From: Pseudomonas fluorescens
GTDB taxonomy: Bacteria; Pseudomonadota; Gammaproteobacteria; Pseudomonadales; Pseudomonadaceae
NCBI RefSeq assembly: GCF_001708445.1
Contig: NZ_CP015637.1
Coordinates: 3,349,001-3,413,000 of the forward strand
Direction: 5' to 3'
DNA: 64,000 bases
The position numbers and the translations under genes were made by a program. Shown piece after piece: positions 372 to 60,332 of this stretch (positions are counted from its first letter, which is position 1; every line of letters begins with the position of its first letter). The notes under the pieces are model-generated. The model made no database searches. It saw only the letters and a list, made by a program, of their open reading frames with translations, and had not been told where the DNA came from.

Positions 372-380
372 GGCCCGACC

Positions 381-1690: not shown

Positions 1691-2762
1691 CAAAAAAATC
1701 AGTGTGCTGCTGGTCGATGACTCGGCCGTAGTACGCCAGGTGCTGCTGGCGATTCTCAGCGATACACCGGATATCCACGTGATGGGTGCCGCCTCTGACC
1801 CGATCTTTGCCATGGACAAACTCGCCCGGGAATGGCCGGATGTGATCGTACTGGACGTGGAAATGCCGCGCATGGACGGCATCACCTTTCTGAAGAAAAT
1901 CATGAGCGAGCGGCCGACGCCGGTGGTGATCTGTTCCTCGCTGACCCAGAAAGGCGCGGAGACCTCCCTGCAAGCGCTGTCGGCCGGTGCCGTGGAAATC
2001 ATCACCAAGCCCACGACCGGGCTGAAGAGTTTCCTGATCGAGTCGGCGGCCGAGTTGGTGGCCGCGATCCGTGCCGCGGCGAACTCCAACGTCAAGAACC
2101 TGGGAAAGCGCGCCGCCAGCCCGGCGCCGTCACTGGCCCCGCCCAGCAAGCTCAGTGCGGATGCGATCCTGCCCGCCAATGGCCACGCCATGGCACAGAC
2201 CACGGAACGTATCGTCGCCATTGGCACCTCCACCGGCGGTACCCAGGCACTGGAGGCGGTGCTGACAGCATTGCCGAGGGTGTGCCCCGGCATGGTGATC
2301 GTGCAGCACATGCCCGAGAAATTCACCGCCTCCTTTGCCGAGCGCCTCAACAGCGTCTGCGAGATCGAGGTACGCGAGGCGCGCAACAACGACCGCATCC
2401 TGCCCGGCCTGGCCTTGATCGCGCCTGGCGGCAAGCACCTGATGGTCACCCGCAGTGGTGCCTATTATCACGCCCAGGTGATCGACGGGCCGCTGGTCAA
2501 CCGGCATCGGCCGTCAGTGGATGTGCTGTTTCGCTCGGTGGCCAAGTTCGCCGGCAGGAATGCCACCGGCATCATCATGACCGGCATGGGCGACGACGGC
2601 GCACGCGGGCTCAAGGAGATGCTTGAGGCCGGAGCCGCCACGGTGGCCCAGGACGAGGCCAGTTGCGTGGTGTTCGGCATGCCCAAGGAGGCGATCAAGC
2701 TCAACGCCGCCCAGCGCATCATGGCGCTGGAGGACATTCATCAGGCGATCTTGTACAAGTGA
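1683..2762 (+). CDS. cheB: CheB protein-glutamate methylesterase / response regulator
   Basis: A 359-residue two-domain protein. The N-terminal receiver (about residues 5-125) has the acidic pair VDDS, the phospho-acceptor Asp in [11 protein letters not shown] near residue 58 and the conserved Lys in TKPT. An Ala/Pro-rich linker leads to the C-terminal methylesterase domain. That domain carries the catalytic Ser in GTSTGG, His in VQHMPEKF and Asp in [11 protein letters not shown]. It removes methyl groups from receptors and deamidates them after phosphorylation by CheA. It is the last gene of the operon and converges on a flavin monooxygenase gene. The 94-base gap contains no convincing hairpin with a U-run. 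Confidence 0.97.
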
Positions 2763-2856
2763 AGGTGAACGCCAGCCAGTCATAAACATCGGCGAGTCCC
2801 ACTCAAGCGCACAAACCGGCGGATCTGGACGCAACTGCAGGCTACGGGGCAAGGCG

Positions 2857-9348: not shown

Positions 9349-9600
9349 CTCGCTTCGCATCGTGAATACGTTTGCGCGACTTGGACAGGGGGGGCAATCA
9401 GTCAGCGATCGACAATCGATTGCTGTGTGCAGCTTTACTGCCAGGCCGGATTCATGGTTGATGGTGGCAGCCACGGTCAAGACTGGCGGCACACAGCGTC
9501 AAGACATCTGCCGCTCGGAAGGGACTTAATAGCACCTGAGCGGAACAGAGCCTCCCGTCGGCTCTGCAGCGAGTTTTCTTTCACTTTTCCAGGCTGCGCC

Positions 9601-45509: not shown

Positions 45510-47708
45510 TCAAAAATCGACGGTAGCCGAGAGTTGCAAAGTGCGCGGATACCCTGGCGAAAATGCACCATAGGAGGCCACGCCAGACCAATACTCACGG
45601 TCGAATACGTTCTGTACCGTGGCGCGGAAAGTCGTCGGCCGCCCTTCGATTTTGGTGGCATAGCGCGCGCCTGCATCAATACGGGTCCAGGCATCCAGCG
45701 TTTGGGTGTTGGCCTGGTTGACGTACTGGCTGTCGGTATAGATCGCACCGCCGGTGAGGGTAAAACCTTCCAGCCACGGGGTGTCATATTCTGCCCATAG
45801 GTTGGCCTGGATATCCGGCACTCCCACCGGTTTATTGCCGCGGTTGGCGGCAGTGGCCGAATCCGTCAACTCACCCTCCAGGAAGGTCACACCGCCCATC
45901 AAGCGCGTGCCCGGCGCCACCTCACCGAACACGCTCAGCTCGACGCCACGGTTACGCTGTTCTGCCTGTACCGAGAACAGATTGTTAGCGCCTACCTCTC
46001 CGCTGGGCTTTTCTATCTGGAACAGTGCCAGGGTGGTCATGAAGGTAGCGTGCTCGTACTTCACGCCAATCTCGTGCTGCTTGGACTTATAGGGTGCGAA
46101 GGTTTCCCCGGAGTTGTCCGCCGTGCCTGGGGCAATGTCGCCTTTGCTCAAGCCTTCCACGTAGTTGTAGTAGAAAGACACATCGTCCCACGGTTTGACC
46201 ACCACGCCGACCAAAGGCGTAGTGGCATTGTCTTTATAGCGGGAGCTGACGGCGCCGGCAGCATTGTAGTTGCGCGACTCGATGTATTGTCGGCGCACGC
46301 CCAAGGTCAGTTGGAAGCGATCATCCAGAAAGCCCAGGGTGTCGGTCAGCGCCACGCCGGACAACTCCGACTCGGAGATGCGCAGCACCTTCGGGGTGCT
46401 GATGTACTGCTTGGGTGTGTCCACCGGATGGTAAATATTCGAGCGAATGTCCGTGCCGTTAGTGATGCCCCGCGAGAGTTCATCCTGGTAACGGGTGGCC
46501 ATCAACGTGGTGATATGGGTCACCGGGCCCGTGGCAAACAGCCCGCGGATCCCCATATCCGCGGTGGAACGATCAACATTGAATTTGTAGTAGCCAGGTA
46601 TATTACTGGTGTCGCCGGCATCATTGAGGATACGTGGCACCTGGTCGGACATGCGTTTCACATCCGAGCGCCCCCCACCCGCATGGGCGAACACCGTGAG
46701 TGAATCGCTCAAGTCATATTCACCGCCCAGCAAAGCCGACTGCTCCTTGGTGTCTGACCAACCCCACTTTTGCGGCAGGCTTGTACGGCCGTCTGGGGCC
46801 GAAGGCACCTGCACACCGGGTGCGACGGTGAAGGGGCGCGAGGCGCCTTCAAAGCTCTCTTTCTGGCTGATGTAGTCGAGATTCAGGCGCAACCGCTCAC
46901 CGCGGTAATCCAGGGCAATCGCACCGATCCCTACGTCGCGACTCTGGTTGTCAACGGCCGTATCCCCGCCTTGAAGGCTGCCGTTGAAACGTACGCCAAA
47001 CTGGTTTTCTTCACCAAACCGGCGACTGATATCCAAGTGCCCGCCCACTTGGGAGTCCGAGGCGTAACTGCCGGTAAAACGAGTCAGGTCCTCCTCCAGC
47101 GGCCGCTTAGGCACGATATTGATGACACCACCAACCCCACTGTTGGGGGAGATGCCATACATCAAGGCGCCCGGCCCCTTGAGCACTTCGATGCGCTCGG
47201 CGTATTCGGTAAACGCCCGATAGTTAGGCGCTACGCCATAAACGCCGTCGTAGGCCAGTTCACCCAAGTTGCCTTCGCCGATGGCAAAGCCGCGAATGAA
47301 GAACGAGTCGACGATCCCGCCTGTCTGCCCCGTCGAGCGCACCGAGGGGTCGCGCTCCAGGGCATCGGCAGCGGTCACGGTTTGCAGGTCAGCGAGGGTT
47401 TTGGCGGTGTAGCTGGTGACGTTGAAAGGCGTGTCCATCACGTCTTTGTTACCCATCATGCCCAGGCGTGCACCACGCGCCACCTGCCCGCCGGCGAGCA
47501 CCTCGGGCAACGCTGTCGGGCCGTTGTAGCGGCCGTCGATCGTGGTGGTGTCGAGGGTCAGGGGGGGCGTATCGGCCTCCGTGGCGACAGGCGCTTGCGT
47601 CTCAGCCCAGGCATTGGCGCCCGCGGCGACCATGACGAAATTCAACAGGGCGGTCCGAATGGCAAGGGTTAACACGCGTTCACCGCTGGGTCGACTGACA
47701 ACAGGCAT
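45510..47708 (-). CDS. TonB-dependent siderophore receptor without signalling domain (receptor B)
   Basis: A 732-residue outer-membrane receptor. After a signal region ending near ANAWA comes a short linker and the plug (DVMDTPFNVTSYTAKTL, then SVRSTGQTGGIVDSFFIRGF and VLKGPGALMYG). A 22-strand barrel ends in SATVDF. There is no STN secretin/TonB signalling domain, unlike its close paralogue at 51114-53531. A motif shared with that gene, TGATACTTTTTCC-N8-CTGGCA, lies 44 bases before the start on this strand. Likely ligand: a ferric siderophore, type unknown. Confidence 0.92.
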   Translation of the reverse strand: MPVVSRPSGERVLTLAIRTALLNFVMVAAGANAWAETQAPVATEADTPPLTLDTTTIDGRYNGPTALPEVLAGGQVARGARLGMMGNKDVMDTPFNVTSYTAKTLADLQTVTAADALERDPSVRSTGQTGGIVDSFFIRGFAIGEGNLGELAYDGVYGVAPNYRAFTEYAERIEVLKGPGALMYGISPNSGVGGVINIVPKRPLEEDLTRFTGSYASDSQVGGHLDISRRFGEENQFGVRFNGSLQGGDTAVDNQSRDVGIGAIALDYRGERLRLNLDYISQKESFEGASRPFTVAPGVQVPSAPDGRTSLPQKWGWSDTKEQSALLGGEYDLSDSLTVFAHAGGGRSDVKRMSDQVPRILNDAGDTSNIPGYYKFNVDRSTADMGIRGLFATGPVTHITTLMATRYQDELSRGITNGTDIRSNIYHPVDTPKQYISTPKVLRISESELSGVALTDTLGFLDDRFQLTLGVRRQYIESRNYNAAGAVSSRYKDNATTPLVGVVVKPWDDVSFYYNYVEGLSKGDIAPGTADNSGETFAPYKSKQHEIGVKYEHATFMTTLALFQIEKPSGEVGANNLFSVQAEQRNRGVELSVFGEVAPGTRLMGGVTFLEGELTDSATAANRGNKPVGVPDIQANLWAEYDTPWLEGFTLTGGAIYTDSQYVNQANTQTLDAWTRIDAGARYATKIEGRPTTFRATVQNVFDREYWSGVASYGAFSPGYPRTLQLSATVDF

Positions 47709-48034
47709 GACAAGAGGATCCTTTCAACGAGGGAAATAGGAATTACTCTTAATGCCAGTCGACATGGGAAAAAGTATCATCCCGACCTGTTTTTTTTGAA
47801 AACCCAGCGAACGCAGCCTGCTGATCCGCAATGTTGGCGATAGCCGAACATGCGCTCCGCTACTGCAAGAGCGCGGTTACACCTGACAACCGCCTGTGCG
47901 GCCTGGCATCCTCCTCGCGGTACATGTCGACGCTATCGCGCCGCTGCACATGCATTGGATGCAGGACGCCAACTACCGTTGACAACCCCCCCTGACTAAC
48001 CCGTTCGCAGCTGTTCAACCACCGAGGCCGTCTC
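47709..48034. other. Divergent region between receptor B and the MFS gene
   Basis: No gene in 326 bases. The receptor side contains the shared ECF-promoter-like motif (47753-47779). AATAGGAATTACTCTTAAT at 47735-47753 is only a poor Fur-box match. The rest up to the MFS start shows no clear promoter or palindrome. Confidence 0.5.
47753..47779 (-). promoter_or_regulatory. Putative ECF sigma promoter of receptor B
   Basis: Minus strand TGATACTTTTTCC, 8 bases, CTGGCA. The same two blocks with the same spacing occur at 51042-51068 before receptor A. They end 44 and 45 bases before the respective start codons. Both copies are probably read by the ECF sigma factor at 49521-50036. Confidence 0.7.
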
Positions 48035-49279
48035 ATGTCCCAAACCGGTGTTATCCAGGGTTCGAGTGTGAGAATCCTCATTTATCTTCTGTTCGCGATC
48101 CAACTGGTCTCCATGGGCGCGATGGAAATGAGCGGGCCGTTCTGGCCCGTGCACCTGCGTGGGCTGGCCTCTTCGGAGTCGGTGTTCAGCTTCGCCAGCA
48201 TCGCCGTGTACGTCGGGCCGATGCTGGGCATCATGGTGACCAGTGCGTTCTGGGGGCGTATCGGTGATCGACACGGGCATAAATTGATGATGATCCGCGC
48301 ACTCGCAGGGTTGTCCTTGACCCAGCTCGGGTTGGCGTTTTCCACTGATATCTGGGTCATCTTGGTCCTGCGTTTCCTGCAAGGTGCGTTTGCCGGCTAT
48401 ATCGCCCCTGCGCAAGCGTATGGGGTCAGTATCGAAGCGCCGTCACGGCGGGCCCGGCTGTTTGCGATTTTGCAGATATCGACAAATGTCGGCTCATTGC
48501 TGGGCGCGGTCGTTGGCGGCTTGATCCTCGATTACGCGACGTTCTTCTGGATCAATATCGTCGCCTCTGCACTCTGTGCCGTGTGTACCCTGATAGCCGC
48601 CGTGACCTTGCCGAACGTTCCCCCAGTGCCCAAAAAACCGGCGGCGACTTCCGCCCCGCCTGCCTCGGGCACCAGCAGGGTATGGCGCGACTTTCCGCAG
48701 TTGTCTCTGCTGTGCGTCATGGGGATTCTGCTGCTGGCGCGCATGCTGCCCCAGACCTCGTTCTCGCTGTATGTCAGCGCGACATTCGAGGTCAGTCACT
48801 CAGTGGTTGGCCTGTGCTATGGCCTGCTGGCACTGGGCTTCATCCTCTCGGCGAGCGCCTGGTCGCGCTACTTTGAGCACCGGTCTCAAGCACAAACGCT
48901 GCAGCGCATCACCTACATCGTCGTCGGTTGTATCGGGTTAACCGCCGTGGCGGGATTTACGCGCAATCCCGGCATATTTGTCGTCGCCTACTTTGTTTGG
49001 GGGGTACTGCTGGGCGCGACCACCCCCGTGCTGATGGCGTTGATCTCGAAAACCGCCGACAGCTCGCGCCAAGGCTACGTATTGGGTATCGCCCAAAGTA
49101 CCGCGCAATTCGCTTCGATTGCCGGCATCTCCATCGGTGGCTTGCTCAACCAGGTCTACGGCCTGCAATACACCTATCTTTTCGTGTGCCTGGCCTATGC
49201 GGTAGCGCTGATGCCGATGCTGGCGTTGCGGTACAGATCGGCGGCCACGCGCTCCAGCCTTGTTGCAGACAGCAACTGA
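48035..49279 (+). CDS. MFS transporter, probable siderophore/drug exporter type
   Basis: A 414-residue, twelve-helix major facilitator of the MdtG-like drug-exporter kind. The helix 2-3 loop motif reads AFWGRIGDRHGHK, and LVLRFLQGAFAGYIAPAQAYG matches helix 4-5 of that group. Position between two TonB receptors and next to an aminotransferase remnant suggests export of a siderophore or its precursor, or uptake of a siderophore into the cytoplasm. Which one cannot be told from sequence. No strong ribosome site is seen before ATG 48035. Confidence 0.83.
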   Translation: MSQTGVIQGSSVRILIYLLFAIQLVSMGAMEMSGPFWPVHLRGLASSESVFSFASIAVYVGPMLGIMVTSAFWGRIGDRHGHKLMMIRALAGLSLTQLGLAFSTDIWVILVLRFLQGAFAGYIAPAQAYGVSIEAPSRRARLFAILQISTNVGSLLGAVVGGLILDYATFFWINIVASALCAVCTLIAAVTLPNVPPVPKKPAATSAPPASGTSRVWRDFPQLSLLCVMGILLLARMLPQTSFSLYVSATFEVSHSVVGLCYGLLALGFILSASAWSRYFEHRSQAQTLQRITYIVVGCIGLTAVAGFTRNPGIFVVAYFVWGVLLGATTPVLMALISKTADSSRQGYVLGIAQSTAQFASIAGISIGGLLNQVYGLQYTYLFVCLAYAVALMPMLALRYRSAATRSSLVADSN

Positions 49280-49291
49280 ACAAGGAACTGC

Positions 49292-49474
49292 ATGCGTGCC
49301 GACACACCCGCTGTCGAACACCTGATCCATTTCAACAACACCGGCGCGGCGCTGATGCGTGACGCTTCACACTACAGCACCGAAGCTGAAATCGATGGGT
49401 TGATTGACGCCTTGACGCGCCTGCCATGCGCCGGATTGACCGAAGATGATCGCGCTTGCGTTCCAGTCGCTTAG
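49292..49474 (+). pseudogene. Internally deleted remnant of a class-V PLP aminotransferase
   Basis: A 60-residue open frame that joins two ends of a class-V aminotransferase/cysteine-desulfurase-like protein. Its N-terminus RADTPAVEHLIHFNNTGAAL matches the conserved start of such enzymes (RADTPGC...HFNNAGAAL). Directly after it comes DASHYSTEAEIDGLIDALTR, which matches their conserved C-terminus (HYYNTEAEIDALV). The roughly 300 or more residues between, including the PLP lysine, are missing, so it cannot be active. It starts 12 bases after the MFS stop, so the intact gene was probably cotranscribed with the exporter. Confidence 0.72.
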
Positions 49475-49483
49475 TCAACTAGC

Positions 49484-49502
49484 ATTGGGAATACTTCTCA
49501 AT
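49484..49502. promoter_or_regulatory. Fur box before the ECF sigma gene
   Basis: ATTGGGAATACTTCTCAAT is a near-perfect palindrome (ATTGGGAA against TTCTCAAT, one mismatch) of the form of pseudomonad Fur sites. It lies 18 bases before the sigma-factor ATG, so iron-replete cells would repress the signalling genes. Confidence 0.6.
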
Positions 49503-49520
49503 AACATAAAACCTGCCGCC

Positions 49521-50036
49521 ATGAGCGAAACCCTCTCCGCCAACCACCCCAACCGTCTGCGCGCAATCGAGGCCCTGTACAGCGGGCACCACGGCTGGCT
49601 GTATGCCACGCTGAAGAGAAAGCTGGGTAACGCCATGGATGCGGCGGATTTGGCGCAGGACACCTTCACCCGGATCCTGGCATCACAGGTCACGGTGATT
49701 GACCAGCCACGGGCGTACTTGAGCTGCGTGGCCAAGGGTATCCTGATCAACTGGTACCAGCGCAAGGCACTGGAACGCGCCTACCTGGAGGCACTGGCGA
49801 ATGTGCCCGCCCACGAAGCGCCGTCGCCCGAGACGCACTTTCTGGTGCTGGAAACCCTGCACGAAATCGACGCCATGCTCGATACCCTGGCGCCGCAGGT
49901 CAAACGCGCATTCCTGCTGTCGCAGATCAACGGCCTCAAGTACGACGACATCGCCGAGCAACTGGGTGTATCGCTGATCACCGTCAAGCGCTACATGAAA
50001 CAGGCTTTCGTACAATGCCTGATGCTGGTGGAGTGA
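49521..50036 (+). CDS. FecI-type ECF RNA polymerase sigma factor
   Basis: A 171-residue sigma-70 family ECF protein. Region 2 has LYSGHHGWLYATLKRKLGNAMDAADLAQDTFTRIL in outline, and region 4 has LAPQVKRAFLLSQINGLKYDDIAEQLGVSLITVKRYMKQAF in outline. It directs transcription of the siderophore receptor when FecR relays a signal from the occupied receptor. The start ATG 49521 follows a Fur box. FecR begins immediately at the next base after its stop (TGA-ATG). Confidence 0.94.
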   Translation: MSETLSANHPNRLRAIEALYSGHHGWLYATLKRKLGNAMDAADLAQDTFTRILASQVTVIDQPRAYLSCVAKGILINWYQRKALERAYLEALANVPAHEAPSPETHFLVLETLHEIDAMLDTLAPQVKRAFLLSQINGLKYDDIAEQLGVSLITVKRYMKQAFVQCLMLVE

Positions 50037-51014
50037 ATGCTCGGTCTGCGCAAGGAGCCGCCGCTGGACCCGCAGGTACTCGAAGAAGCCGCCGAGTGGC
50101 TGATGCGCTTGAGCGAGCGCGAACTGACGGACCACGAACGCGCCGAATGGGAACGCTGGAAGATCAGCACCCCCGAGCGTAACCGCGCGTGGTCACGGGC
50201 AACATTGCTGCAGAGCAAGTTCGGCGGTTTACCACCCTCCCTGGCGATGTCGGCCCTCGATCGACCGAACAGCCCGGAACGCCGCGCCCTGCTGGGCAAA
50301 CTGGCGCTCCTGTTGGCGGTGGTGCCGGTGAGTTGGGGCGGTTGGAAGCTGGCACAATCGCAGCAATGGTCAGCGGGCTACCGCACCGATGTTGGCCAGC
50401 GTCGCGAACTTACCCTGGCCGATGGTTCGCACCTCACCCTGAACACCGATACCGCCATCGACGTCGTGTTCGACGACCGCCAACGGCTTATTCACTTGCG
50501 CGAAGGCGAAATCCTGGTGCAAACCGCGGTCGACACGCCCCCCCTGCCCCGGCCGTTCCTGATCAGCACCCGCCAAGGCCGCATGCAAGCCCTGGGCACG
50601 CGCTTTACTGTACGTGAGTCAAGCCCGCGCACTCACCTGGCGGTACTCGATGGCGCGGTAAAAGTGACGCTGGCCGATAACAGCCAGGCGGCCCCGCTGA
50701 TCGTCAATGCCGGGCAGCGTACCGACTTTTCCGCGCAGACGTTTGGTTCGCTGACGCAGGCTGACCGCTACGCCGGTTCATGGGCCCAAGGCATGTTGAT
50801 GGCCGACAGGATGCGCCTGGCCGACTTCGTCGCTGAACTGGCGCGCTACCGCCGAGGCTTCATACGCTGCGATCCGGCCATTGCCGACCTGCGCGTTTCC
50901 GGCGCTTTCCCGATCAGCGATACCGATCGCACCTTGAATATGCTGGTGCAGACTTACCCCGTGCTGGTGACCGGGCATTTGCGCGGTTATTGGGTGACCT
51001 TGTCTCCCGCCTGA
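50037..51014 (+). CDS. FecR-type transmembrane sigma regulator
   Basis: A 325-residue regulator. The cytoplasmic N-terminal domain has EAAEWLMRLSERELTDHERAEWERW in outline (DUF4880), which binds the sigma factor. A transmembrane helix, LGKLALLLAVVPVSWGGW, lies near residues 85-104. The periplasmic FecR domain (RTDVGQRRELTLADGSHLTLNTDTAI in outline, then RQGRMQALGTRFTVR) and a C-terminal STN-like segment follow and contact the receptor's signalling domain. It is coupled to the sigma gene and followed 99 bases later by the receptor with an STN domain. Confidence 0.93.
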   Translation: MLGLRKEPPLDPQVLEEAAEWLMRLSERELTDHERAEWERWKISTPERNRAWSRATLLQSKFGGLPPSLAMSALDRPNSPERRALLGKLALLLAVVPVSWGGWKLAQSQQWSAGYRTDVGQRRELTLADGSHLTLNTDTAIDVVFDDRQRLIHLREGEILVQTAVDTPPLPRPFLISTRQGRMQALGTRFTVRESSPRTHLAVLDGAVKVTLADNSQAAPLIVNAGQRTDFSAQTFGSLTQADRYAGSWAQGMLMADRMRLADFVAELARYRRGFIRCDPAIADLRVSGAFPISDTDRTLNMLVQTYPVLVTGHLRGYWVTLSPA

Positions 51015-51041
51015 CCGTGCGCAAAATAAACGGTGGCCGGG

Positions 51042-51068
51042 TGATACTTTTTCCACTCTCGGCTGGCA
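51042..51068 (+). promoter_or_regulatory. Putative ECF sigma promoter of receptor A
   Basis: TGATACTTTTTCC, 8 bases (ACTCTCGG), CTGGCA. Identical blocks and spacing to the site before receptor B. It ends 45 bases before ATG 51114, in the 99-base gap after fecR. Confidence 0.7.
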
Positions 51069-51113: not shown

Positions 51114-53531
51114 ATGCTCGTAGCACGGCCCCTGCGTCCGGCCCGTCCGTTCAAACCCATGGTCCACGGCGCAGTACTCAGCGTGCTGCTGGCCTGGTCC
51201 GTGTGCGCGCTGGCTTCAGCGGCGGTGCCGGTGCAATTGGATTCGGTCGCGGTGCGTGCTTACCACATTGCCCCAGGCCCGCTCGGTGCAACGCTCTCGA
51301 ACTTTGCCGTGGACGCCGGCATTGCCCTGTCATTCGAACCGTCGATCACGCAAGGCCTGACCAGCCCTGAGCTGAGCGGCACCTATTCGACACAGGCAGC
51401 CGTCACCCGCCTGCTGGACGGCAGTGGCCTGGCGATGGTGTTGCGCAGCGACGGCAGCTACACCCTGGTCCAACGCACGGTCACGTTGTCGGCCACCACC
51501 GTGACGGCCCCGGAAAAACCCGGCAGCAGCAGCCTGCCACCCGTGTACTCGGGTGGCCAGGTGGCCACCGGCGGGCGCCTCGGCTTACTCGGCAATACGG
51601 ACGTGATGGACGCCCCCTTCAGCGTCAGCACCTATACCGCAGCCCTGATAAAGGACCAGCAAGCAACAACCGTGGGTGATGTGCTCGAACGCGACTCCTC
51701 GGTTCGCGCTACCGGCCAGGCAGGCGGGATTGTCGACTCCTTCTTCATCCGTGGTTTTCCAGTGGGCGAAGGCAACCTCGGCGAACTCGCGTTCGATGGG
51801 GTGTACGGCGTGGCCTCCAATTACCGCGTATTTACCGACTACGCCGAGCGCATCGAGGTGGTCAAGGGCCCCGGCGCCCTGCTCTACGGCATGTCGCCCA
51901 ACAGCGCTGTCGGCGGCGTCATCAACGTAGTGCCCAAGCGTTCCCTGGACGAGGACCTGACGCGAGTGACCGCCAGTTACGCCCAGGACTTTCAACTCGG
52001 CACTCACCTCGACGTGAGCCGGCGGTTTGGCGAAGATCGGCGATTCGGGGTGCGCGTCAATGGGCGTCTACAAGCAGGTGATACCGCGATCGATGAGCAA
52101 TCGCGGGATGTCGGGGTCGGTGCCATCGCCTTGGATTACCAGGGTGATCGCCTGCGTACCACCTTGGACCTGATCACCCAAAAGGAACAATTCGACGCGG
52201 CCTCACGCCCGTTCCTGATTGCAGACGGTGTGCCGATTCCCCCTGCCGCCAACGGGCGTACCAACGTGAGCCAGGCGTGGGGCTGGTCGAAAACCCTGGA
52301 TGAATCGGCACTGCTGGGCGGCGAATATGACCTCAGCGACGCACTGACCCTGTTCGGCCATGCCGGCGGTGGGAAGTCTGATGTGGCACGCCTGTCCGAC
52401 CAGACCCCGACCATCATCAACAGCGCCGGCGACACCTCGTCGACGCCCGGCTACTACAAGTTCAAGGTACGACGCTACACGGTCGACGTCGGTGCCCGAC
52501 TGCGTTTCGACACTGGGCCGATCAGCCACAGCAGCACGCTGCAAGTCACCCGCTACCGCGATGAATTGTCGCGCGGCATCATTTCCAGCACGCCCATCCT
52601 GTCGAACATTTACCAGCCGATCGAGCGCCCCAAGGTTGACATCGCAACGCCAGCGACGCCGAAAGTCTCGGCAACCGAATTGTCCGGGGTAGCTGTTGCC
52701 GACACCTTGTCGATACTCGACCAACGCGTCCAAGTCACTGCGGGCCTGCGCAAGCAGAGCATTCGCTCCAACAACTACAACACCGCCGGCGCCGTAACCA
52801 CCGCTTACGACGACGGCAAGACTACGCCGCTGTTCGGGCTGGTTGTACGGCCCTGGGAGCGGGTGTCGTTCTATTACAACTACCTCGAAGGCTTGAGCAA
52901 GGGCGATATCGCCCCGGCCACGGCCTCGAACGCAGGCCAGGTCTTTGCCCCCTACGTCTCACGCCAGCATGAAGTCGGGGTCAAACTCGACTACGGCACG
53001 GTCATGTCCACCCTTGCGTTGTTCCAGATTACGAAACCTAGCGGCGAGCTGTCAGGCGGTGCCTTTTCGGTCCAAGGCGAACAGCGCAATCGTGGACTGG
53101 AACTGAATGTCTCCGGCGAGGCCGGCCCAGGTACGCGCCTGCTCGGCGGCGTGACCCTGCTGGACGCACAACTGACCGAAACAGGCGTGGCGGCCAACAG
53201 AGGCAACAAGCCGATTGGCGTGCCCAATGTCCAGGCCAACCTCTGGGCCGAATGGGATGTGCCGCAGGTCGAGGGGCTGACGCTGACCAGCGGAGCCTTG
53301 TACACCGCCAGCCAATACGTGGACCAGGCCAACACGCAGGCGCTGGATCCGTGGACACGCTTCGACGTCGGTGCGCGCTACAGCACCCGCATCGCCCAGC
53401 GCCCGACGATATTGCGCGTCACCGTCCAGAACGTGTTCGACCGCGAGTATTGGTCGGGCGTGGCCTCCTATGGCGCGTTCTCTCAAGGTTCACCACGTAC
53501 CGTTCTACTGTCGACCTCGGTCGATTTCTGA
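51114..53531 (+). CDS. TonB-dependent siderophore receptor with STN signalling domain (receptor A)
   Basis: An 805-residue FecA/FpvA-like transducer. After a signal sequence ending near ASA there is an STN domain of about 75 residues (IAPGPLGATLSNFAVDAGIALSFEP in outline, then LLDGSGLAMVLRSDGSYTLV), which talks to FecR. The plug and a 22-strand barrel ending in STSVDF follow. It is about two-thirds identical by eye to receptor B across plug and barrel. It has no clear ribosome site before ATG 51114; an in-frame TTG at 51099 is no better. The iron ABC transporter genes follow on the same strand. Confidence 0.94.
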   Translation: MLVARPLRPARPFKPMVHGAVLSVLLAWSVCALASAAVPVQLDSVAVRAYHIAPGPLGATLSNFAVDAGIALSFEPSITQGLTSPELSGTYSTQAAVTRLLDGSGLAMVLRSDGSYTLVQRTVTLSATTVTAPEKPGSSSLPPVYSGGQVATGGRLGLLGNTDVMDAPFSVSTYTAALIKDQQATTVGDVLERDSSVRATGQAGGIVDSFFIRGFPVGEGNLGELAFDGVYGVASNYRVFTDYAERIEVVKGPGALLYGMSPNSAVGGVINVVPKRSLDEDLTRVTASYAQDFQLGTHLDVSRRFGEDRRFGVRVNGRLQAGDTAIDEQSRDVGVGAIALDYQGDRLRTTLDLITQKEQFDAASRPFLIADGVPIPPAANGRTNVSQAWGWSKTLDESALLGGEYDLSDALTLFGHAGGGKSDVARLSDQTPTIINSAGDTSSTPGYYKFKVRRYTVDVGARLRFDTGPISHSSTLQVTRYRDELSRGIISSTPILSNIYQPIERPKVDIATPATPKVSATELSGVAVADTLSILDQRVQVTAGLRKQSIRSNNYNTAGAVTTAYDDGKTTPLFGLVVRPWERVSFYYNYLEGLSKGDIAPATASNAGQVFAPYVSRQHEVGVKLDYGTVMSTLALFQITKPSGELSGGAFSVQGEQRNRGLELNVSGEAGPGTRLLGGVTLLDAQLTETGVAANRGNKPIGVPNVQANLWAEWDVPQVEGLTLTSGALYTASQYVDQANTQALDPWTRFDVGARYSTRIAQRPTILRVTVQNVFDREYWSGVASYGAFSQGSPRTVLLSTSVDF

Positions 53532-53595: not shown

Positions 53596-54750
53596 ATGGG
53601 TACCATTGTTCGACGCAGCTACGCCATTGCCGCGCTGCTATTCGCTGGATTGGCAGGCTGGTCACTGGCTTCAACAGCGGCCGAGCCGGATACAGCGCGC
53701 AGCACCGTCACCGATTTGCTCGGGCGCGAGATCAAGGTGCACCTGCCGGTCAGGCGAGTCATTCTCGGTGAGGGCCGCCAGTTGTACCTGGTCGCCGCGT
53801 TGGATACGCAAAACCCCATTGAACGTATCGTCGGCTGGCGCAAGGATTTGATCCAGTCCGACCCTGACACCTATGGCGCTTATCTGCGTAAGTTTCCCGC
53901 CATCGCCAAAATCCCCACGTTTGGCGGTTTCGAAGAGGGTACCTTCGACATCGAGCAGGCCATCTCCCTGCATCCCGATGTGATCATCCTCAACATCGAG
54001 GCCCAGCACGCCACCGAGGATGCCCGCTACATCGAGAAACTCGACGCCTTGGGGATTCCCGTGGTGTACGTCGACTTTCGCAACCACCCCATGCAGAACA
54101 CCGAGCCCACCATGCGCCTGTTCGGCCAGCTATTTGGCAAAGAAGCGCGCGCCGAAGCGTTCATCGATTTTCGCAACCAGCAGATCCGCCGCGTCACCGA
54201 CGTCATCAAAGCGCAGCACCCTTCGCGCCCGCGCGTGTTCATCGAGCGCATAGGCGGCTACACCGAAGATTGTTGCCTGAGTTTCGGCAATGAAAACTTT
54301 GGTCTTTTCGTCGACATGGCCGGCGGTGACAACATTGCCAGGAACATCATCCCCAGCACCTTCGGCCAGTTGAACCCCGAGCAGGTGATCGTCGCCAACC
54401 CGCAACACGTGGTGGTCACCAGCGCGAATTGGGAAGCCTTTGCTCCCGGTGGCCGTTGGGTCGGTGTCGGCCCCGGCGCCGACATGGCACAAGCCCGGCG
54501 CAAGCTGGCGTGGTATACCCAGCGTCCGGCCTATGCCGGGATCAAGGCGCAGGATGACCAGGCATTCCACGCCATCTGGCATCAGTTCTACAACAGCCCT
54601 TATCAATTTGTGGCCATCCAGCAATTGGCCAAATGGTTTCATCCGACACTGTTTACCGACCTGGACCCTGACGCTTCGTTTCGCGAGTTGCACGAGCGAT
54701 TCCTGCCAGTGCCCTATGAGCCGGGTTACTTCGTGAGCCTCAAGCCATGA
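53596..54750 (+). CDS. Iron-siderophore ABC transporter periplasmic binding protein
   Basis: A 384-residue class III (FepB/BtuF-like) binding protein. A signal peptide (MGTIVRRSYAIAALLFAGLA, cleavage near ASTAA) is followed by VTDLLGREIKVHLPVRRVILG, IVGWRKDLIQ, LHPDVIILNIEA and FIERIGGYTEDCCLSFGN. The CC pair is unusual and might form a disulfide or bind metal. It begins 64 bases after receptor A and overlaps the permease by 4 bases (ATGA). It should carry the siderophore-iron complex, or released iron, to the permease. Confidence 0.88.
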   Translation: MGTIVRRSYAIAALLFAGLAGWSLASTAAEPDTARSTVTDLLGREIKVHLPVRRVILGEGRQLYLVAALDTQNPIERIVGWRKDLIQSDPDTYGAYLRKFPAIAKIPTFGGFEEGTFDIEQAISLHPDVIILNIEAQHATEDARYIEKLDALGIPVVYVDFRNHPMQNTEPTMRLFGQLFGKEARAEAFIDFRNQQIRRVTDVIKAQHPSRPRVFIERIGGYTEDCCLSFGNENFGLFVDMAGGDNIARNIIPSTFGQLNPEQVIVANPQHVVVTSANWEAFAPGGRWVGVGPGADMAQARRKLAWYTQRPAYAGIKAQDDQAFHAIWHQFYNSPYQFVAIQQLAKWFHPTLFTDLDPDASFRELHERFLPVPYEPGYFVSLKP

Positions 54751-55793
54751 CGGCGGTGATCCAGCGCGACACCTACAGGCGCCTGGTCCTGCGCAAACGC
54801 CTGATCCTCGGCGCCCTGGCCCTGCTGTTGATGGGCAGCGTGCTACTCGACCTGGCGCTGGGCCCGGCGAGCTACAGCTTCAGCGACGTCCTGGGCGCGC
54901 TGATCGCGCCGGACAGTGCCCCCGCGCAGATTCGCGTAGTGATGTGGGATATCCGCCTGCCGATCGCCCTGATGGCGGTGGCGGTGGGCGCGGCGTTGTC
55001 ATTGGCCGGGGCCCAGATGCAGACCATCCTCAACAACCCGCTGGCCAGCCCCTTCACCCTGGGCATTTCTGCCGCCGCCAGTTTTGGCGCGGCCATGGGG
55101 CTGGCGTTTGGTGTGGCACTGTTTCCATTGGCCGCGCAGTACATGGTGCCGCTGAACGCGTTCATCATGGCCATGCTCTCGGCGTTGCTGATTCACTTCC
55201 TGAGCATGCGTCGCGGGGTCACCGCGGAAACCATCGTGCTGCTGGGTATCGCCCTCGTGTTCACGTTTAACGCGTTATTGGCCCTGGTGCAGTTTTTCGC
55301 CACCGAACAAGCCGTGGCAGCCGTGGTGTTCTGGACCATGGGCAGCTTGACCAAAGCCACCTGGCCGAAACTTGGGGTGATCTGCCTGGTGATCGTGATC
55401 ACCCTGCCGATCTTTGCCAAACGCGCCTGGGCCCTGACCGCGCTGCGACTGGGCGACGATAAGGCCGCCAGTTTCGGGATCAACGTACGCAGCCTGCGCT
55501 TTCAAACGTTGATCATGGTCAGCCTGCTCGCCTCGTTCCCCGTGGCCTTTGTTGGCACCATCGGCTTTATCGGGCTGGTCGGCCCGCATATTGCGCGGAT
55601 GTTGATCGGCGAGGATCAGCGCTTCTTCCTGCCGGCCTCACTGCTGACCGGCGCACTGATTCTGTCCGCCAGTTCGGTGGTGAGCAAAACCCTGATCCCG
55701 GGCGCGATCTTCCCGATCGGGGTCGTCACGTCATTGATCGGCGTGCCGTTCTTCATATCTCTGATCCTCAGCGGGAAGAAAAACGCATGGTGA
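54747..55793 (+). CDS. FecCD-type iron-siderophore ABC permease
   Basis: A 348-residue permease of the BtuC/FecCD family, about ten helices. DIRLPIALMAVAVGAALSLAGAQMQTILNNPLASPFTLGIS in outline is the family hallmark, and the late GTIGFIGLVGPHIARMLIGEDQR loop contacts the ATPase. A single permease gene suggests a homodimer. The stop overlaps the ATPase start by 7 bases. Confidence 0.94.
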   Translation: MTAVIQRDTYRRLVLRKRLILGALALLLMGSVLLDLALGPASYSFSDVLGALIAPDSAPAQIRVVMWDIRLPIALMAVAVGAALSLAGAQMQTILNNPLASPFTLGISAAASFGAAMGLAFGVALFPLAAQYMVPLNAFIMAMLSALLIHFLSMRRGVTAETIVLLGIALVFTFNALLALVQFFATEQAVAAVVFWTMGSLTKATWPKLGVICLVIVITLPIFAKRAWALTALRLGDDKAASFGINVRSLRFQTLIMVSLLASFPVAFVGTIGFIGLVGPHIARMLIGEDQRFFLPASLLTGALILSASSVVSKTLIPGAIFPIGVVTSLIGVPFFISLILSGKKNAW

Positions 55794-56542
55794 AGATTCA
55801 GTTGCAAGACCTGGGTGCCCGCTATGGCCAGCGCACGATTATCCGTGGCGTTACCACTGCCGCGTTCACCGGCGGCCAGGTAGTCGCGGTGGTGGGGCCC
55901 AATGCGGCGGGCAAGTCCACCCTGTTCAAACGCATGGCCGGGCTGATCGACGGGCCTGGCCAGGTGATCCTGCAGGACTCGAAAAAGGGCCAGCAAGGCA
56001 TCTGCTACATGCCCCAGGGCTTGAATGCCAGTGCGCGGTTGACGGTCTACGAATCGGTGCTCCTGGCCCGCAAGCAACTGTCGCCGCAATGGACCGTCCA
56101 CGATGACGAGCTGAAGCGGGTGGACGAGATGCTCGACGCCCTTGGCATCAGCGACTTGTCCTTTCAAAACCTGGGCGAACTCAGTGGGGGCCAACAGCAA
56201 CTGGTGTCCATCGCCCAGACATTGGTGCGCGAACCGGAAATCCTGTTGATGGACGAACCCACCAGCGCCCTCGATATGCATCGCCAGGTGCAAGTGCTGA
56301 AATTCATGGGCGCCTTGACCCGTAAACAGCAGGTCATTGTGTTTATCGCCCTGCATGACCTGAACCAGGCTTTGCACTTTGCCGATCAGGTATTGGTGAT
56401 TGCCGACGGCACCGCCCAGGGCAGCGGCGCGAGTCATGAGGTGATCACCGAACGCATGCTGCGCGAGGTGTACCAGGTTGAAGCGCGGATCGAGCAGTGC
56501 AGTCGGGGACAACGACATATTTTGATCGACGGTATTACGTGA
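55787..56542 (+). CDS. Iron-siderophore ABC transporter ATP-binding protein
   Basis: A 251-residue FecE/FepC-type ATPase. Walker A reads GPNAAGKST near residue 40, the signature LSGGQQQL, Walker [14 protein letters not shown], and the H-loop IALHDLNQ. It is the last gene of the iron operon and converges on the hybrid kinase gene, 73 bases away; no strong terminator hairpin is visible in that gap. Confidence 0.94.
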   Translation: MVKIQLQDLGARYGQRTIIRGVTTAAFTGGQVVAVVGPNAAGKSTLFKRMAGLIDGPGQVILQDSKKGQQGICYMPQGLNASARLTVYESVLLARKQLSPQWTVHDDELKRVDEMLDALGISDLSFQNLGELSGGQQQLVSIAQTLVREPEILLMDEPTSALDMHRQVQVLKFMGALTRKQQVIVFIALHDLNQALHFADQVLVIADGTAQGSGASHEVITERMLREVYQVEARIEQCSRGQRHILIDGIT

Positions 56543-56615: not shown

Positions 56616-59600
56616 TCATCCCTTATTCTGCTGGGCATCAAGGGGGACATCGAGGATGAAGGTTGCGCCTTGTCCAGCCCCGTCGCTGCGCACGGTCAAG
56701 CTGCCACCCATTTCCTGCGCAGCGAGCGCGCAGCTGTGCAGGCCGAAACCGTGACCGTCCTGGCGCGTCGTGAAGCCATGGGAAAAGATGCGCACCAGAT
56801 GCTCTGGCGTAATCCCGTTGCCGTTATCGGCCACCGTGATACGCAATACTGGCCCGTGCGCAACAGAGGCGTTGAACGTGATGGCCGGGCTGCGATCGAT
56901 CACGCCGTCCAACGCCTGCTTGGCATTCCTGATCAGGTTCATCAGGATCAGCAGCACCCGGTGCCGGTCCAGCGACAGCAGGGGCAAGTCGGCAATCTCC
57001 TTGACCACCGTCACCTCCTGACGCCCCCGTGGTCCGGCACTCATGCGCAAGGCGTCATCGATTAATTCCGAGATCGCTATTGTCTCGACGACACTGACGG
57101 CAACGGCATAGGACTGCTGGGCTGCGACAATGGTTTTGATGTGGTCAATGCCCTTGGTGAGTTGCCCGAGTTCTTCGATGATGCCCTGTTGCTCTGCCGT
57201 CACCACTGTCGCCAGCTTGAGCAGGTAGTCGGGCAGCATCTTCCCTTTGTTGTCTCGGGTGAGGAAATCGCTCAGGTCATGGACGTGTTCGTTCATCAGC
57301 TGAGCCACCTTGCCCAGGCCCTGGGCTTTGGAGTTGCGCATCTGGCCGCTGACCAGCTCTGCCGATACGTTCACGCTGTTGAGGACATTGCCGACGTTGT
57401 GCAGCACCGTAGTGGCAATTTCGGCCATGCCCGCCTGACGGGATTTTGCGTTCAGTTCGGCTTGCACCTGGCTCATGCGCAGGGCCGCGCGTACGCGAGC
57501 CTTGAGCTCCAGCGGCGAGAAGGGTTTGGCGATATAGTCATCGGCGCCACTCTCCAGCCCGGAGACGCAGGCCTCGCTGCCGCCGCGGGCGGTCAACAGG
57601 ATCACGGGCAGATGAGCGAAGCCGGCGCTGGCTTTGATTCTGGCGGTCAGGCCAAAGCCGTCGAGCTTGGGCATCATCACGTCCGAGAGAACGACATCGA
57701 TGGGTCGACGCTGCAGTATTGCCCAGGCCTGTTCTCCATCGGCTGCGGTGGCGACAATGTAGTCGTCGCGCAAAAGTTCGTTGAGGTAGCTGAGCATTTC
57801 CGGGTTGTCGTCGACCACCAGTACTTTGGATCGCAAGGCGTGTTCCGGGTGGGGCTCGTCGTCTGCGACTTGCGTCGACGCCGGGTCGCCGCGACTGCCT
57901 TGGCGGCCGTCGTCGAAACGCAGGTAGCGCTGCTCGGTGGTGCTCGGTGCTGACCGCTCGTGCATCCTATTGCTGGCGTCGATCGGCACGATGCTTTGCT
58001 CGGCCCCCAGCGGAAGTCGCACAAAGAAGCATGAGCCGCGTCCAGGTTCGCTGTTGACGCCAACTTCGCCCCCCATCCGTTCGGCCAGATACTTGACCAG
58101 GGCCAGACCAATGCCTGTGCCGCTGTAATGGCGCGTGGCGGAATTGTCGATCTGGGAAAAACGCTGGAACAACAACGGCAGTTTGTCAGGCGCAATGCCA
58201 ATCCCCGAGTCTTGCACCGCGAGTTCAAATCGCTCGCCATCAATCGGCGTCACGGCCACGTGCACGGTGCCGCCAGCGGGCGTGAACTTGATAGCATTGC
58301 TCACCAGGTTAAGCACGATCTTCTCGAAGTGTCGGGGGTCCAGGAACACCGTGCCGAGCGCGGCGTCGATGCTGCAGGTCAAGGTGCAGCCTTTGCCCTG
58401 CGCCACCAGCGCGGCATCCTCGGCCAGCACACCTACCGCCTTGTTCAAGTCAACGGACGTTGGAAACAACTCCACCTTGCCGGCTTCGGCCTTGGAAAAG
58501 TCGAGGATCTCATTCACCCGGCTCATCAAGCGCAGCGCATTGCGTTGGGCGCGCTCGACTTGCACACGCCAGTCCGCGGGCGGGGTGGTCACCGCTGAGA
58601 GCTGCTCCAGGGGGGCGAGAATCAGGGTCAGGGGGGTGCGCAGTTCGTGACTGACCGTGGCAACGAAATCGCTCTTGGCCCGGTTAGCCGTCTCGGCCTG
58701 GTTGCGCGCCTGAATGAGTTCGACGGCCTGCGCCTCCAACACCTCGGTCTGCCGGTGCAGCGTGTCGGTCCGTTCATCGACCATTCTCTCCAAAGAGGCC
58801 TGGACCTGCTGTCGTTCGGCTTCGGCCTCGGCCTCCAGCACCCGGATGCGCAAAGCATTCTCCTGGAACACCCGCACCGCACGGGTCATGATCCCAATCT
58901 CATCGCCGCGCCCGGCGCTGGCGATCTCGGCGCTCAGGTCACCGGCAGCGAGCCGGCGCATGACCGAGGCCAGGGCAACGATGGGCTGCGCAACAAACCG
59001 CGAGGTGCTCCAGGCGATGGCACCGGCCAGCAGGATGGCGACGGCGCCCGCGATGATCGTCGCGAGCATGCCGCGATCCTTGTGGACCAAGGCGTCTGAA
59101 CGCGCTTGGCCAGCGAAGCGTGCAACCAACAGGCCTGCGCTGCGGGCCTCGTTGCGAACTTGGTCGCGCGCGTCACTCAAGGCATTGCTCGCCTGATGGA
59201 ACCTGGCGAATGCGGCCCGGTAGCCGGCGATCTGATCGCTGACCGTCTGGGGCGTAGCGTCGGTCTGCGGCCCTACCGATGAAGGGAGAACGCGCGCGAG
59301 ACGGGAGAGTTCATCGAGGATGGCATCGACAGCGCTGGCGACCTCGGCCGAGGGTGCCAGGCGAAACGACAACGTCTGCGCCTCCAGGGTGGCCACACGC
59401 TCGGCGAAACGCTTGGACAATGCGGCCGCATTTTGCAGCAAACCGGTGGCGGCCTGAATGTCGCTGGCTTCGTGGGCAACGTGCTCCTCCACTTCACCCA
59501 GCATGACTTCGAGGCGTTCGGCCACGTCCCCAACGGTGCCGAGATGCCGCAAAGCCTCGCCACCGCGAAGCTTGGGTGCCGCGCCAAGCTGCTCGACCGC

Positions 59601-60332
59601 CAGGCAGGCGGCAGCGACCGCCGTCGCCAACTGCCCCAGGGTCTCCACCTCCTGCGGCGCTCCCATCAACTCGCGCAATTGCTCGACCACGGGCGGCAAT
59701 GCCGCGCAGGCGCTGCTCGCCGCAGTGGCGGCCGCCCCATCACCGGTCACCAGCACCTTGGCCACATTGGCGGTGATGATCCGTTCGCCGTTGCGCAGGA
59801 TATCCAGGATACGGTGGGCACTCTCAATATTGCTCACCCGCGCCTGGTGGTCAGTGGCGCGGGCACCAAGCGTCTTCAGCCCATCGGCGATGCCCTGTTC
59901 GACGACGATCGTCGCCTCTCGCATTCGATCGTAGTGGGCGGTCATGTTCTCCGTTTCGCCATCCATGGTCAGGGTCGCCGCCCGCAAGGCGGCGATCGCC
60001 CCGGCGAGCCGTTCCAGGCTGCCCTTGAGCGATTGCGCTTCTGCCACCGGAATGGCGGCAAGGCCGGTGATAGCCGTCGCCACCATGCCTTCGGCCTGGG
60101 ACAAGCTTTCCTGATCGCGGGTGGCAATGAAGTTTTCCACCCGCCCGGTGGCACCGTTGACCGAAGCCAGAATTTCTGCGGAATGGCTGGCGGAATCCAC
60201 CGCCCGCACCATGCCTCGCAGGCCGTAGAGGTTCACCAGCGATACCGCCAGCATCAAGAACACCAGTGCGGCAACTGCCAGGCCAATCCTGACGGCAATG
60301 GGCCTGGCCGTGGCCGATTTGAATGTCAACAT
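56616..60332 (-). CDS. Hybrid sensor kinase with two kinase cores around a receiver (TorS-like sensor)
   Basis: A 1238-residue membrane protein. Domains in order: TM1 about 13-35; a helical periplasmic region to about 420; TM2 about 421-441; HAMP (RRLAAGDLSAEIASAGRGDEIG in outline); coiled coil about 500-545; HisKA with phospho-acceptor His in SHELRTPL near 561; HATPase with NLVSNAIKF and GTGIGLALVK; receiver with VVDDNPEM and Asp in SDVMMPKLDG near 884, Lys in AKPFSP; then a second kinase core with His in TVLHNVGNVLNSV near 977 and HATPase motifs NLIRNAKQAL and DNGNG...HGFGLHSCALAAQ. There is no Hpt domain and no separate regulator nearby. It follows a TorT-like binding protein by 25 bases. 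Confidence 0.9.
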   Translation of the reverse strand: MLTFKSATARPIAVRIGLAVAALVFLMLAVSLVNLYGLRGMVRAVDSASHSAEILASVNGATGRVENFIATRDQESLSQAEGMVATAITGLAAIPVAEAQSLKGSLERLAGAIAALRAATLTMDGETENMTAHYDRMREATIVVEQGIADGLKTLGARATDHQARVSNIESAHRILDILRNGERIITANVAKVLVTGDGAAATAASSACAALPPVVEQLRELMGAPQEVETLGQLATAVAAACLAVEQLGAAPKLRGGEALRHLGTVGDVAERLEVMLGEVEEHVAHEASDIQAATGLLQNAAALSKRFAERVATLEAQTLSFRLAPSAEVASAVDAILDELSRLARVLPSSVGPQTDATPQTVSDQIAGYRAAFARFHQASNALSDARDQVRNEARSAGLLVARFAGQARSDALVHKDRGMLATIIAGAVAILLAGAIAWSTSRFVAQPIVALASVMRRLAAGDLSAEIASAGRGDEIGIMTRAVRVFQENALRIRVLEAEAEAERQQVQASLERMVDERTDTLHRQTEVLEAQAVELIQARNQAETANRAKSDFVATVSHELRTPLTLILAPLEQLSAVTTPPADWRVQVERAQRNALRLMSRVNEILDFSKAEAGKVELFPTSVDLNKAVGVLAEDAALVAQGKGCTLTCSIDAALGTVFLDPRHFEKIVLNLVSNAIKFTPAGGTVHVAVTPIDGERFELAVQDSGIGIAPDKLPLLFQRFSQIDNSATRHYSGTGIGLALVKYLAERMGGEVGVNSEPGRGSCFFVRLPLGAEQSIVPIDASNRMHERSAPSTTEQRYLRFDDGRQGSRGDPASTQVADDEPHPEHALRSKVLVVDDNPEMLSYLNELLRDDYIVATAADGEQAWAILQRRPIDVVLSDVMMPKLDGFGLTARIKASAGFAHLPVILLTARGGSEACVSGLESGADDYIAKPFSPLELKARVRAALRMSQVQAELNAKSRQAGMAEIATTVLHNVGNVLNSVNVSAELVSGQMRNSKAQGLGKVAQLMNEHVHDLSDFLTRDNKGKMLPDYLLKLATVVTAEQQGIIEELGQLTKGIDHIKTIVAAQQSYAVAVSVVETIAISELIDDALRMSAGPRGRQEVTVVKEIADLPLLSLDRHRVLLILMNLIRNAKQALDGVIDRSPAITFNASVAHGPVLRITVADNGNGITPEHLVRIFSHGFTTRQDGHGFGLHSCALAAQEMGGSLTVRSDGAGQGATFILDVPLDAQQNKG

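Follow-up and report, generated by a model that had tools for sequence, protein, structure and literature searches.

In the FecI-FecR-FecA system of Escherichia coli, whose ligand is citrate, a sigma factor gene is followed by the genes of a regulator, of a receptor with an STN domain and then of an ABC transporter, and the same order is found in the locus analyzed here, which lies in a 64-kb window (the whole stretch of DNA under study). The E. coli system differs in having a single receptor, another upstream promoter block and fecBCDE, where our locus has two receptors and one permease gene. In a second related system, FemI-FemR-FemA of Pseudomonas aeruginosa, FemA expression is raised by mycobactin, as reported in PMC5971595. 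FemA is the nearest solved relative of both receptors of our locus, R1 (PDB 8s34, 4.5e-184) and R2 (FemA in the PDB, 1.1e-194), but neither of them is FemA itself, there are two of them, and the synthesis cluster of relatives points to a ligand other than mycobactin. The second-best solved relative of both is BauA, which takes acinetobactin. The receptor of a further locus, L170, was considered as FemA and rejected, being a FemA relative only. The cluster of relatives itself resembles the fsl (rhizoferrin) locus of Francisella and the rhizobactin NIS loci in its IucA/IucC synthetase (best NCBIfam model, FslA), FslB-like exporter and PLP decarboxylase; it differs from them by an additional octopine dehydrogenase and class-V aminotransferase and by NCBIfam scores far under the curated cut-offs, and compared with these NIS siderophore loci our window has remnants only.

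The FecI-type gene that a first-pass annotation had placed between two receptor promoters is indeed there (49521..50036, plus strand). It encodes 171 aa with Pfam Sigma70_r2 and r4_2 matches and has counterparts in orthologous loci; its start was set at the ATG at 49521, in an ORF running from 49446, where homologues such as that of L034 begin at the equivalent ATG. The protein scores 190.8 bits against NCBIfam NF009180, above the cut-off of 184, and misses that of the FecI equivalog NF041727 (179.4 versus 260). Directly behind it lies the gene of a FecR-type sigma regulator (50037..51014, plus strand; 325 aa), which matches Pfam FecR at 2.7e-22 as well as DUF4880 and whose ALGTRF sequence includes a Gly-Thr pair. 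R2 (51114..53531, plus strand; 805 aa), a TonB-dependent siderophore receptor and the predicted transducer, matches Pfam STN, Plug and barrel models; its N-terminal STN match (3.7e-6) reaches 27.1 bits, slightly short of the 28.4 cut-off, and its residues 50 to 120 match the signaling-domain structures of FecA and PupB. With sigma regions 2 and 4, an adjoining FecR and an STN receptor all found, we assign the locus, from its predicted proteins, to the FecI-type ECF sigma factors of cell-surface signaling.

The second TonB-dependent siderophore receptor, R1 (45510..47708, minus strand; 732 aa), has Pfam Plug and barrel matches, and a Pfam search of it gave no STN match. R1 and R2 are paralogues, 66% identical over 684 aa, R1 resembling an R2-like transducer minus the STN block. 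Behind R2, on the plus strand, are the genes of a periplasmic siderophore-binding protein (53596..54750; Pfam Peripla_BP_2 on a longer ORF, the start at 53596 being inferred), a FecCD-type permease (54747..55793; Pfam FecCD) and an ABC ATPase (55787..56542; NCBIfam iron/heme ABC ATPase relatives, all below cut-offs). An FslB-like MFS transporter is encoded at 48035..49279 (plus strand; Pfam MFS_1; NCBIfam FslB, 165.8 bits, under the cut-off of 600). A Fur box before fecI was considered and dropped, its best match agreeing with the Fur consensus at 11/19 bases, a score that the plus strand of the window reaches in 61 places. Sigma-70 promoters and terminators showed no excess over shuffles in the window.

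The two-block motif described in the first pass was found with 0 mismatches at 47753..47779 (minus strand) and 51042..51068 (plus strand), exactly these two matches occurring in the 64-kb window, at 44 bases from the ATG at 47708 (R1) and 45 bases from the ATG at 51114 (R2). Between the sites, the flanks are as different as had been said, with 23/60 identical bases upstream and 13/44 downstream. The spacer, which had been written as N8, does have this length but is not free sequence: both copies read N4-TCGR before CTGGCA, giving the refined motif TGATACTTTTTCC-N4-TCGR-CTGGCA, with exact matches to TGATACTTTTTCC-N4-TCGA-CTGGCA before R1 and TGATACTTTTTCC-N4-TCGG-CTGGCA before R2. Even when up to 3 mismatches were allowed, dinucleotide shuffles of the window (n = 100) gave no match, and a search of the 6.64-Mb genome, which the first pass had proposed as a check, returned only the same two sites; a reversed-pattern control gave 0 matches in the genome. 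With no third site at 3 mismatches, the number of two receptors proposed for the regulon holds in this genome. A looser pattern with 3 mismatches added two genome places, 1362710 and 4135390. A weight matrix was derived from 77 distinct sites, both window sites among them; the two window sites scored 43.6 and 42.0, against 0.3 for the best remaining position of the window. We consider it very likely that both sites are promoters used by the FecI-type sigma factor and that they place both receptors under its control; the promoter at 51042..51068 probably serves the ABC genes behind R2 too.

Among 298 Pseudomonas genomes, the refined pattern occurred in all 57 that have an orthologue of the sigma factor and in 8/241 others, a difference whose Fisher value overstates the evidence because the R2 site and the sigma gene sit close together on the DNA and the genomes share ancestry. 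The co-occurrence is partly plain linkage, one site lying ∼1 kb from the sigma gene. We adopted the refined pattern for this count because the original one, at 3 mismatches, had matches in 150/298 genomes, many of which look like chance. Three of the eight sigma-negative genomes carry the same kind of locus: in G004 and G009 the sigma gene is absent or incomplete in the available stretch, and the sigma of G166, at 62%, falls below the cut-off. The remaining five have 2-mismatch matches, a number close to the 7 matches that the reversed control gives in the same 298 genomes. At least two sites were present in 29 genomes, every one of them sigma-positive; in 12 of these the two sites are 11.5 to 12.1 kb apart, and the second site is therefore kept at a distance. 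A site follows fecR in 72/80 orthologous fecIR loci, and a total of 98 motif sites was found in 1.25 Mb, versus 0 for the reversed pattern. All 116 sites in the loci counted, a number that excludes the five lone 2-mismatch matches in sigma-less genomes (L141 and L143 to L146), are aimed at a same-strand R1- or R2-type receptor. Their orientation is constant, and their distance is mostly 43 to 47 bases where the receptor match begins at residue 1. In one locus, that of P. palleroniana (L062), R2 has no upstream site.

It is improbable that the motif is instead the operator of another regulator, with a housekeeping sigma factor starting transcription nearby. A sigma-70-like match at 47752..47780 does overlap the R1 site, though on the opposite strand, but such matches are no more frequent than in shuffles (2 versus a mean of 3.1). 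The motif is, moreover, not palindromic and consists of two blocks with FecI-like spacing, and each of the 116 counted sites is directed toward a receptor that begins at promoter distance. In an ungapped alignment on TCGA, the region upstream of E. coli fecA has this block at equal spacing from its upstream block and shares 16/27 and 14/27 bases with the two sites. Neither the fecA promoter nor, in 6/7 paralogue regions of the source genome, the receptor-proximal region was among the top matrix matches, so that what links the motif to FecI promoters is its short blocks and their aligned spacing.

Slightly less probable still is that the likeness of the sites is a leftover from duplication of a receptor with its promoter, the R1 site now being out of use. 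As paralogues at 66% identity, R1 and R2 may well have received the site together with the gene, but the motif has been kept while the flanks diverged to the extent given above, and the site is retained by 30/30 R1 genes that lack STN among the counted loci (here L149 repeats the strain of L085, and L149 to L151 were chosen because of their sites). STN status in this survey was judged by protein length, with a Pfam check on seven proteins. In a P. putida-group clade and in L168, an STN-bearing R1 occupies the place of R2 behind the same motif. Least probable is that the sites are read by one or several other FecI-type sigma factors of the genome. The genome does encode 13 additional relatives of this sigma factor at E <= 1e-5, and upstream of one paralogous receptor (L132) an element resembles the motif in part (matrix score, 9.2). 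In the other six paralogue regions scored, however, the four best matrix matches all lie elsewhere than directly upstream of the receptor, and 233/241 genomes without this sigma also lack the motif despite further sigma candidates there.

Use of both sites by the sigma factor encoded between them is further suggested by natural variation. The base at motif position 4 shows a tendency to covary with one residue of the predicted DNA-reading helix of the sigma factor (region 4.2): in 101 rows, Ile goes with T in 74, Gly with G in 9 and Thr with C in 5, with Thr and T (L188), Val and G (L108) and Val and T (L113) as exceptions. At the level of sequence comparison, this tendency, the genome counts and the receptor-directed sites all support the original reading of the motif as a sigma-specific promoter.

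Synthesis genes persist in the window as remnants, and no intact NIS synthetase was found in the locus. Two short pieces of an IucA/IucC siderophore synthetase lie at 47812..48018 (plus strand); in a tblastn comparison with the L149 synthetase, residues 518 to 564 match at 62% (5e-10) and residues 635 to 659 at 60% (0.20), the second match being weak alone. A class-V aminotransferase remnant lies at 49292..49399 (plus strand; tblastn, 60% over residues 6 to 47, 2.7e-7), and relatives have a long class-V aminotransferase gene between the MFS gene and fecI. The same synthesis cluster is present in Pseudomonas sp. FEN (L094), which, according to PMC7676072, releases rhizobactin and rhizobactin B. 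The locus constitutes the uptake portion of a cluster for siderophore synthesis that is found in relatives, a rhizobactin producer among them. The most likely ligand is a rhizobactin-like aminopolycarboxylate of the NIS type, made by relatives and no longer by the source strain, the link to rhizobactin itself being through Pseudomonas sp. FEN only.

In the signal flow and transcription starts that we infer, the ferric siderophore would bind the STN-bearing R2, whose N-terminal domain would signal to the FecR protein. The latter would release or activate the sigma factor, which would then initiate transcription at both promoters and so raise the levels of R2 and the ABC transporter and of R1, and R1 would import without signaling. 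How this arrangement arose can be proposed with about equal confidence for and against: the sigma-promoter pair may have stayed fixed while the receptors swapped roles, a transducer having been duplicated with its promoter and one copy having lost the STN block to become a transport-only amplifier under its sister, with the R1 lineage serving as transducer in the P. putida-group clade. The window strain would then be a former producer that senses and imports a siderophore made by its neighbors only, with a module left over from a rhizobactin-type locus.

Among the matches listed in the open-licence literature, no title retrieved for GATACTTTTT was on the subject, and neither the sigma factor nor the motif was named in any title or abstract opening. 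The description of the sigma factor as apparently uncharacterized fits the literature searched, but FecI-type promoters and FemA-type receptors, the classes to which its promoters and receptors belong, were already known. The receptor pair offers a natural experiment on the purpose of the STN domain, and the synthesis-cluster link, in naming a likely ligand, turns the question of the pair's substrate into one of producer versus receiver. For a FecI-type sigma factor that Pseudomonas and some Burkholderiales have retained, the motif offers a promoter definition sharp enough to be tested, and natural variants exist of the protein as well as of its proposed DNA site. Loci of Variovorax, Duganella and Delftia also contain it, with 0 to 2 mismatches. 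A class-wide search for the sigma factor at E <= 1e-50 found it in 1/369 genomes, the source genome itself, and a search at 1e-55 in the family around the Variovorax genome found it in 5/250.

Both copies of the predicted promoter motif, TGATACTTTTTCC-N8-CTGGCA, are present without mismatch where the first-pass annotation had placed them. One (47753-47779, minus strand) lies 44 bases from the ATG at 47708 of the minus-strand TonB receptor gene R1 (45510-47708; Plug and barrel domains), and the other (51042-51068, plus strand) lies 45 bases from the ATG at 51114 of its paralogue R2 (51114-53531; STN, Plug and barrel domains). The flanks do differ otherwise, as had been claimed, with only 23 of 60 and 13 of 44 bases identical outside the motif. 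The spacers are CATGTCGA and ACTCTCGG, and the last four spacer bases (TCGR) are therefore part of the motif. With up to three mismatches allowed, there were two matches in the window versus none in 100 shuffles, and the proposed genome search (6.64 Mb) returned just the two window sites and none for the reversed pattern; a looser pattern added two places with three mismatches.

The plus-strand genes run in the order MFS transporter, FecI-type sigma factor (49521-50036), FecR (50037-51014), R2, binding protein, FecCD permease and ATPase, and no terminator-like site between the R2 and binding-protein genes was among the plus-strand matches listed. A large hybrid histidine kinase gene (56616-60332, minus strand) adjoins the ABC genes. 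Sigma factors of P. grimontii, P. marginalis and one P. viridiflava isolate match the window's at 95 to 96% identity, which suggests that the window stems from the vicinity of P. fluorescens. A P. mandelii plasmid shows the same gene arrangement, each receptor being preceded by a site (2 and 0 mismatches); the whole regulon there resides on a 410-kb replicon typed as non-mobilizable.

Among the best 80 of 129 related loci, 72 carry a site (≤3 mismatches) behind fecR, and the orthologous loci hold 98 sites in all, versus none for the reversed pattern in 1.25 Mb. The sequence examined ends soon after fecR in L037, L043, L073 and L098; L107, L111 and L112 have, at the expected position, a variant with shorter spacing or with TGGCAC and CTTGGCA; and P. 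palleroniana (L062) has no site before R2, around 9490-9530. The P. palleroniana site before R1 is retained. Across the window, the plasmid, the 80 loci and eleven further loci, all 116 sites are oriented towards an R1- or R2-type receptor, a count in which some of the eleven were chosen for their sites, L149 and L152 duplicate strains already counted, and the lone weak matches L141 and L143-L146 are left out.

We then surveyed 298 Pseudomonas genomes using the refined motif TGATACTTTTTN6TCGRCTGGC (≤2 mismatches) and a sigma orthologue cut-off of E ≤ 1e-60. The orthologue occurred in 57 genomes and the motif in 65: all 57 sigma-positive genomes versus 8 of the 241 others, where up to 12 candidates were scored per genome in the results shown and some sigma-negatives could be misses. 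The reversed pattern gave 7 matches in the same genomes. Two sigma-negative genomes have perfect sites: G004, whose 9.1-kb contig shows no sigma match and a fecR match that begins only at residue 173, and G009, with a sigma match from residue 61 only. G166, negative by the cut-off, encodes a 62% identical sigma factor with a TGAGAC variant, and G137, G209, G228, G247 and G291 showed no sigma or receptor match within the 12 kb examined. The G004 and G009 loci keep R2 and the perfect motif, with the sigma gene absent or incomplete in the sequence examined; in G009 the permease match is split in two pieces. At least two sites occur in 29 genomes, all sigma-positive, and in 12 of these two sites lie 11.5 to 12.1 kb apart.

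Part of this co-occurrence is plain linkage, since only about 1 kb separates the sigma gene from the R2 site, and we therefore set our confidence slightly lower. It remains highly probable that the sites are promoters used by the sigma factor for R1 and R2, R2-FecR signaling included. The comparative evidence (57/57 versus 8/241; 72/80; 116/116) supports the earlier proposal of an ECF regulon of two receptors with a shared predicted promoter. In such a regulon, R2 would sense a ferric siderophore, FecR would relay its signal, and the sigma factor would fire both promoters; we infer the signaling roles of R1 and R2 from their domain content. The window FecR has, within ALGTRF, a Gly-Thr pair similar to the one where, according to a review, FoxR undergoes self-cleavage (PMC9249621). 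The selection tabulated there gives each FecI-type sigma factor one receptor, except PupI (PupA, PupB). The kind of system is already known; the member is new, and its receptor history is interesting.

Matrix scoring of seven paralogue regions of the same genome that have a receptor start placed the best match just before the receptor in L132 alone, with a score of 9.2 versus 42 to 44 for the window sites. By eye, other paralogue regions have related but different elements. In the E. coli fec locus, the top five matrix matches leave out the fecA promoter region, which, aligned ungapped on TCGA, has 16 and 14 of 27 bases in common with the window sites. This likeness despite the missing matrix match, together with the differing paralogue elements, suggests that the motif is a promoter of the FecI type whose specificity is its own. 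Upstream of their receptors, L135 and L138 of the same genome share, by eye, a different element, GCATTTGC...GGTTTTTT...CTGCCC(C)GTC, perhaps the promoter class of another sigma factor.

For 101 distinct sigma sequences, the residue after VSL in region 4.2 was compared with the fourth base (base 4) of the motif that follows fecR. Ile pairs with T in 74, Gly with G in 9 and Thr with C in 5; the exceptions are Thr-T, Val-G and Val-T (one each), and the remaining rows are five Ile sequences with no promoter found and five with another or unread residue. Gly-G rows form a single clade, and Thr-C arises at two separate places in the tree, one in Pseudomonas (L154) with Ile-T nearest relatives. This suggests that the residue reads base 4 directly. 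Seven more distant family loci (L169-L175) have TGAGAC before receptors 42 to 44% identical to R2; for the one compared (L170), FemA is the best solved relative. Sigma factors with VSER at this place showed no such motif by the expression used, several stretches being short.

L149, L150 and L151 carry a siderophore-synthesis cluster between R1 and the MFS gene. By families assigned from L149, it encodes a PLP decarboxylase, a protein of 347 aa read by eye as PLP beta-family from its motif SSGNTGIG, an octopine dehydrogenase and an IucA/IucC-FhuF synthetase for which FslA is the best NCBIfam model (286 of 1000 bits), and a class-V aminotransferase gene lies between MFS and fecI. A long synthetase match occurs in 28 of 124 sequences searched, many being too short to show one and L149 duplicating the strain of L085. 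None was seen, within the sequence examined, in 38 R1-bearing sequences (>78% identical; L149-L151 left out), five of which (L034, L036, L071, L083 and the window) hold synthesis-gene remnants; L168, with R1 at 77%, has the synthetase. In the window, synthetase pieces lie just behind the R1 promoter (47812-48018) and an aminotransferase piece lies at 49292-49399; these remnants on either side of the MFS gene are a decayed siderophore-synthesis locus. The sole synthetase match (E ≤ 1e-5) in the rest of the genome is a 32% identical IucA/IucC-type relative (G000:C1:4964722-4966557). Opine-type links are part of rhizobactin, and an octopine dehydrogenase could form them. Long matches to all five cluster genes are present in L035, the nearest R2 relative, and in Pseudomonas sp. 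FEN (L094), with the decarboxylase match cut by the sequence end. Both rhizobactin and rhizobactin B are released by strain FEN (PMC7676072); passages of that paper name rhbAB homologues (aminotransferase, diaminopimelate decarboxylase) together with ECF sigma genes and do not mention the present cluster, and the terms octopine and IucA are absent from its text.

Over 684 residues, R1 and R2 share 66% identity, and FemA, followed by BauA, is the best solved relative of both. In the N-terminal alignment, R1 retains the signal peptide and has no STN block. In a receptor tree of 83 rows, made by a quick method with the R2 rows thinned, R1 is one group (support 93, not starred) of 29 STN-less and 12 STN-bearing rows, with R2 rows on the opposite side. 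The STN-bearing rows comprise the base of the group (L168), a P. putida-group clade and L047, whose position among the others is loose. Pfam found STN in all four STN-bearing R1 proteins tested (two above and two below the cut-off) and in neither of two STN-less ones. The STN-bearing R1 of L168 and of the P. putida-group loci is encoded immediately after fecR and the motif. Together with the tree placement, this argues that STN-less R1 is most simply the derived state and that the R1 lineage is a predicted proper target of the sigma factor. In Pseudomonas sp. GM41 (L047), an STN-bearing R1 (359-2791, minus strand) is the second receptor beside an STN-bearing R2, and one sigma factor thus has two possible transducers.
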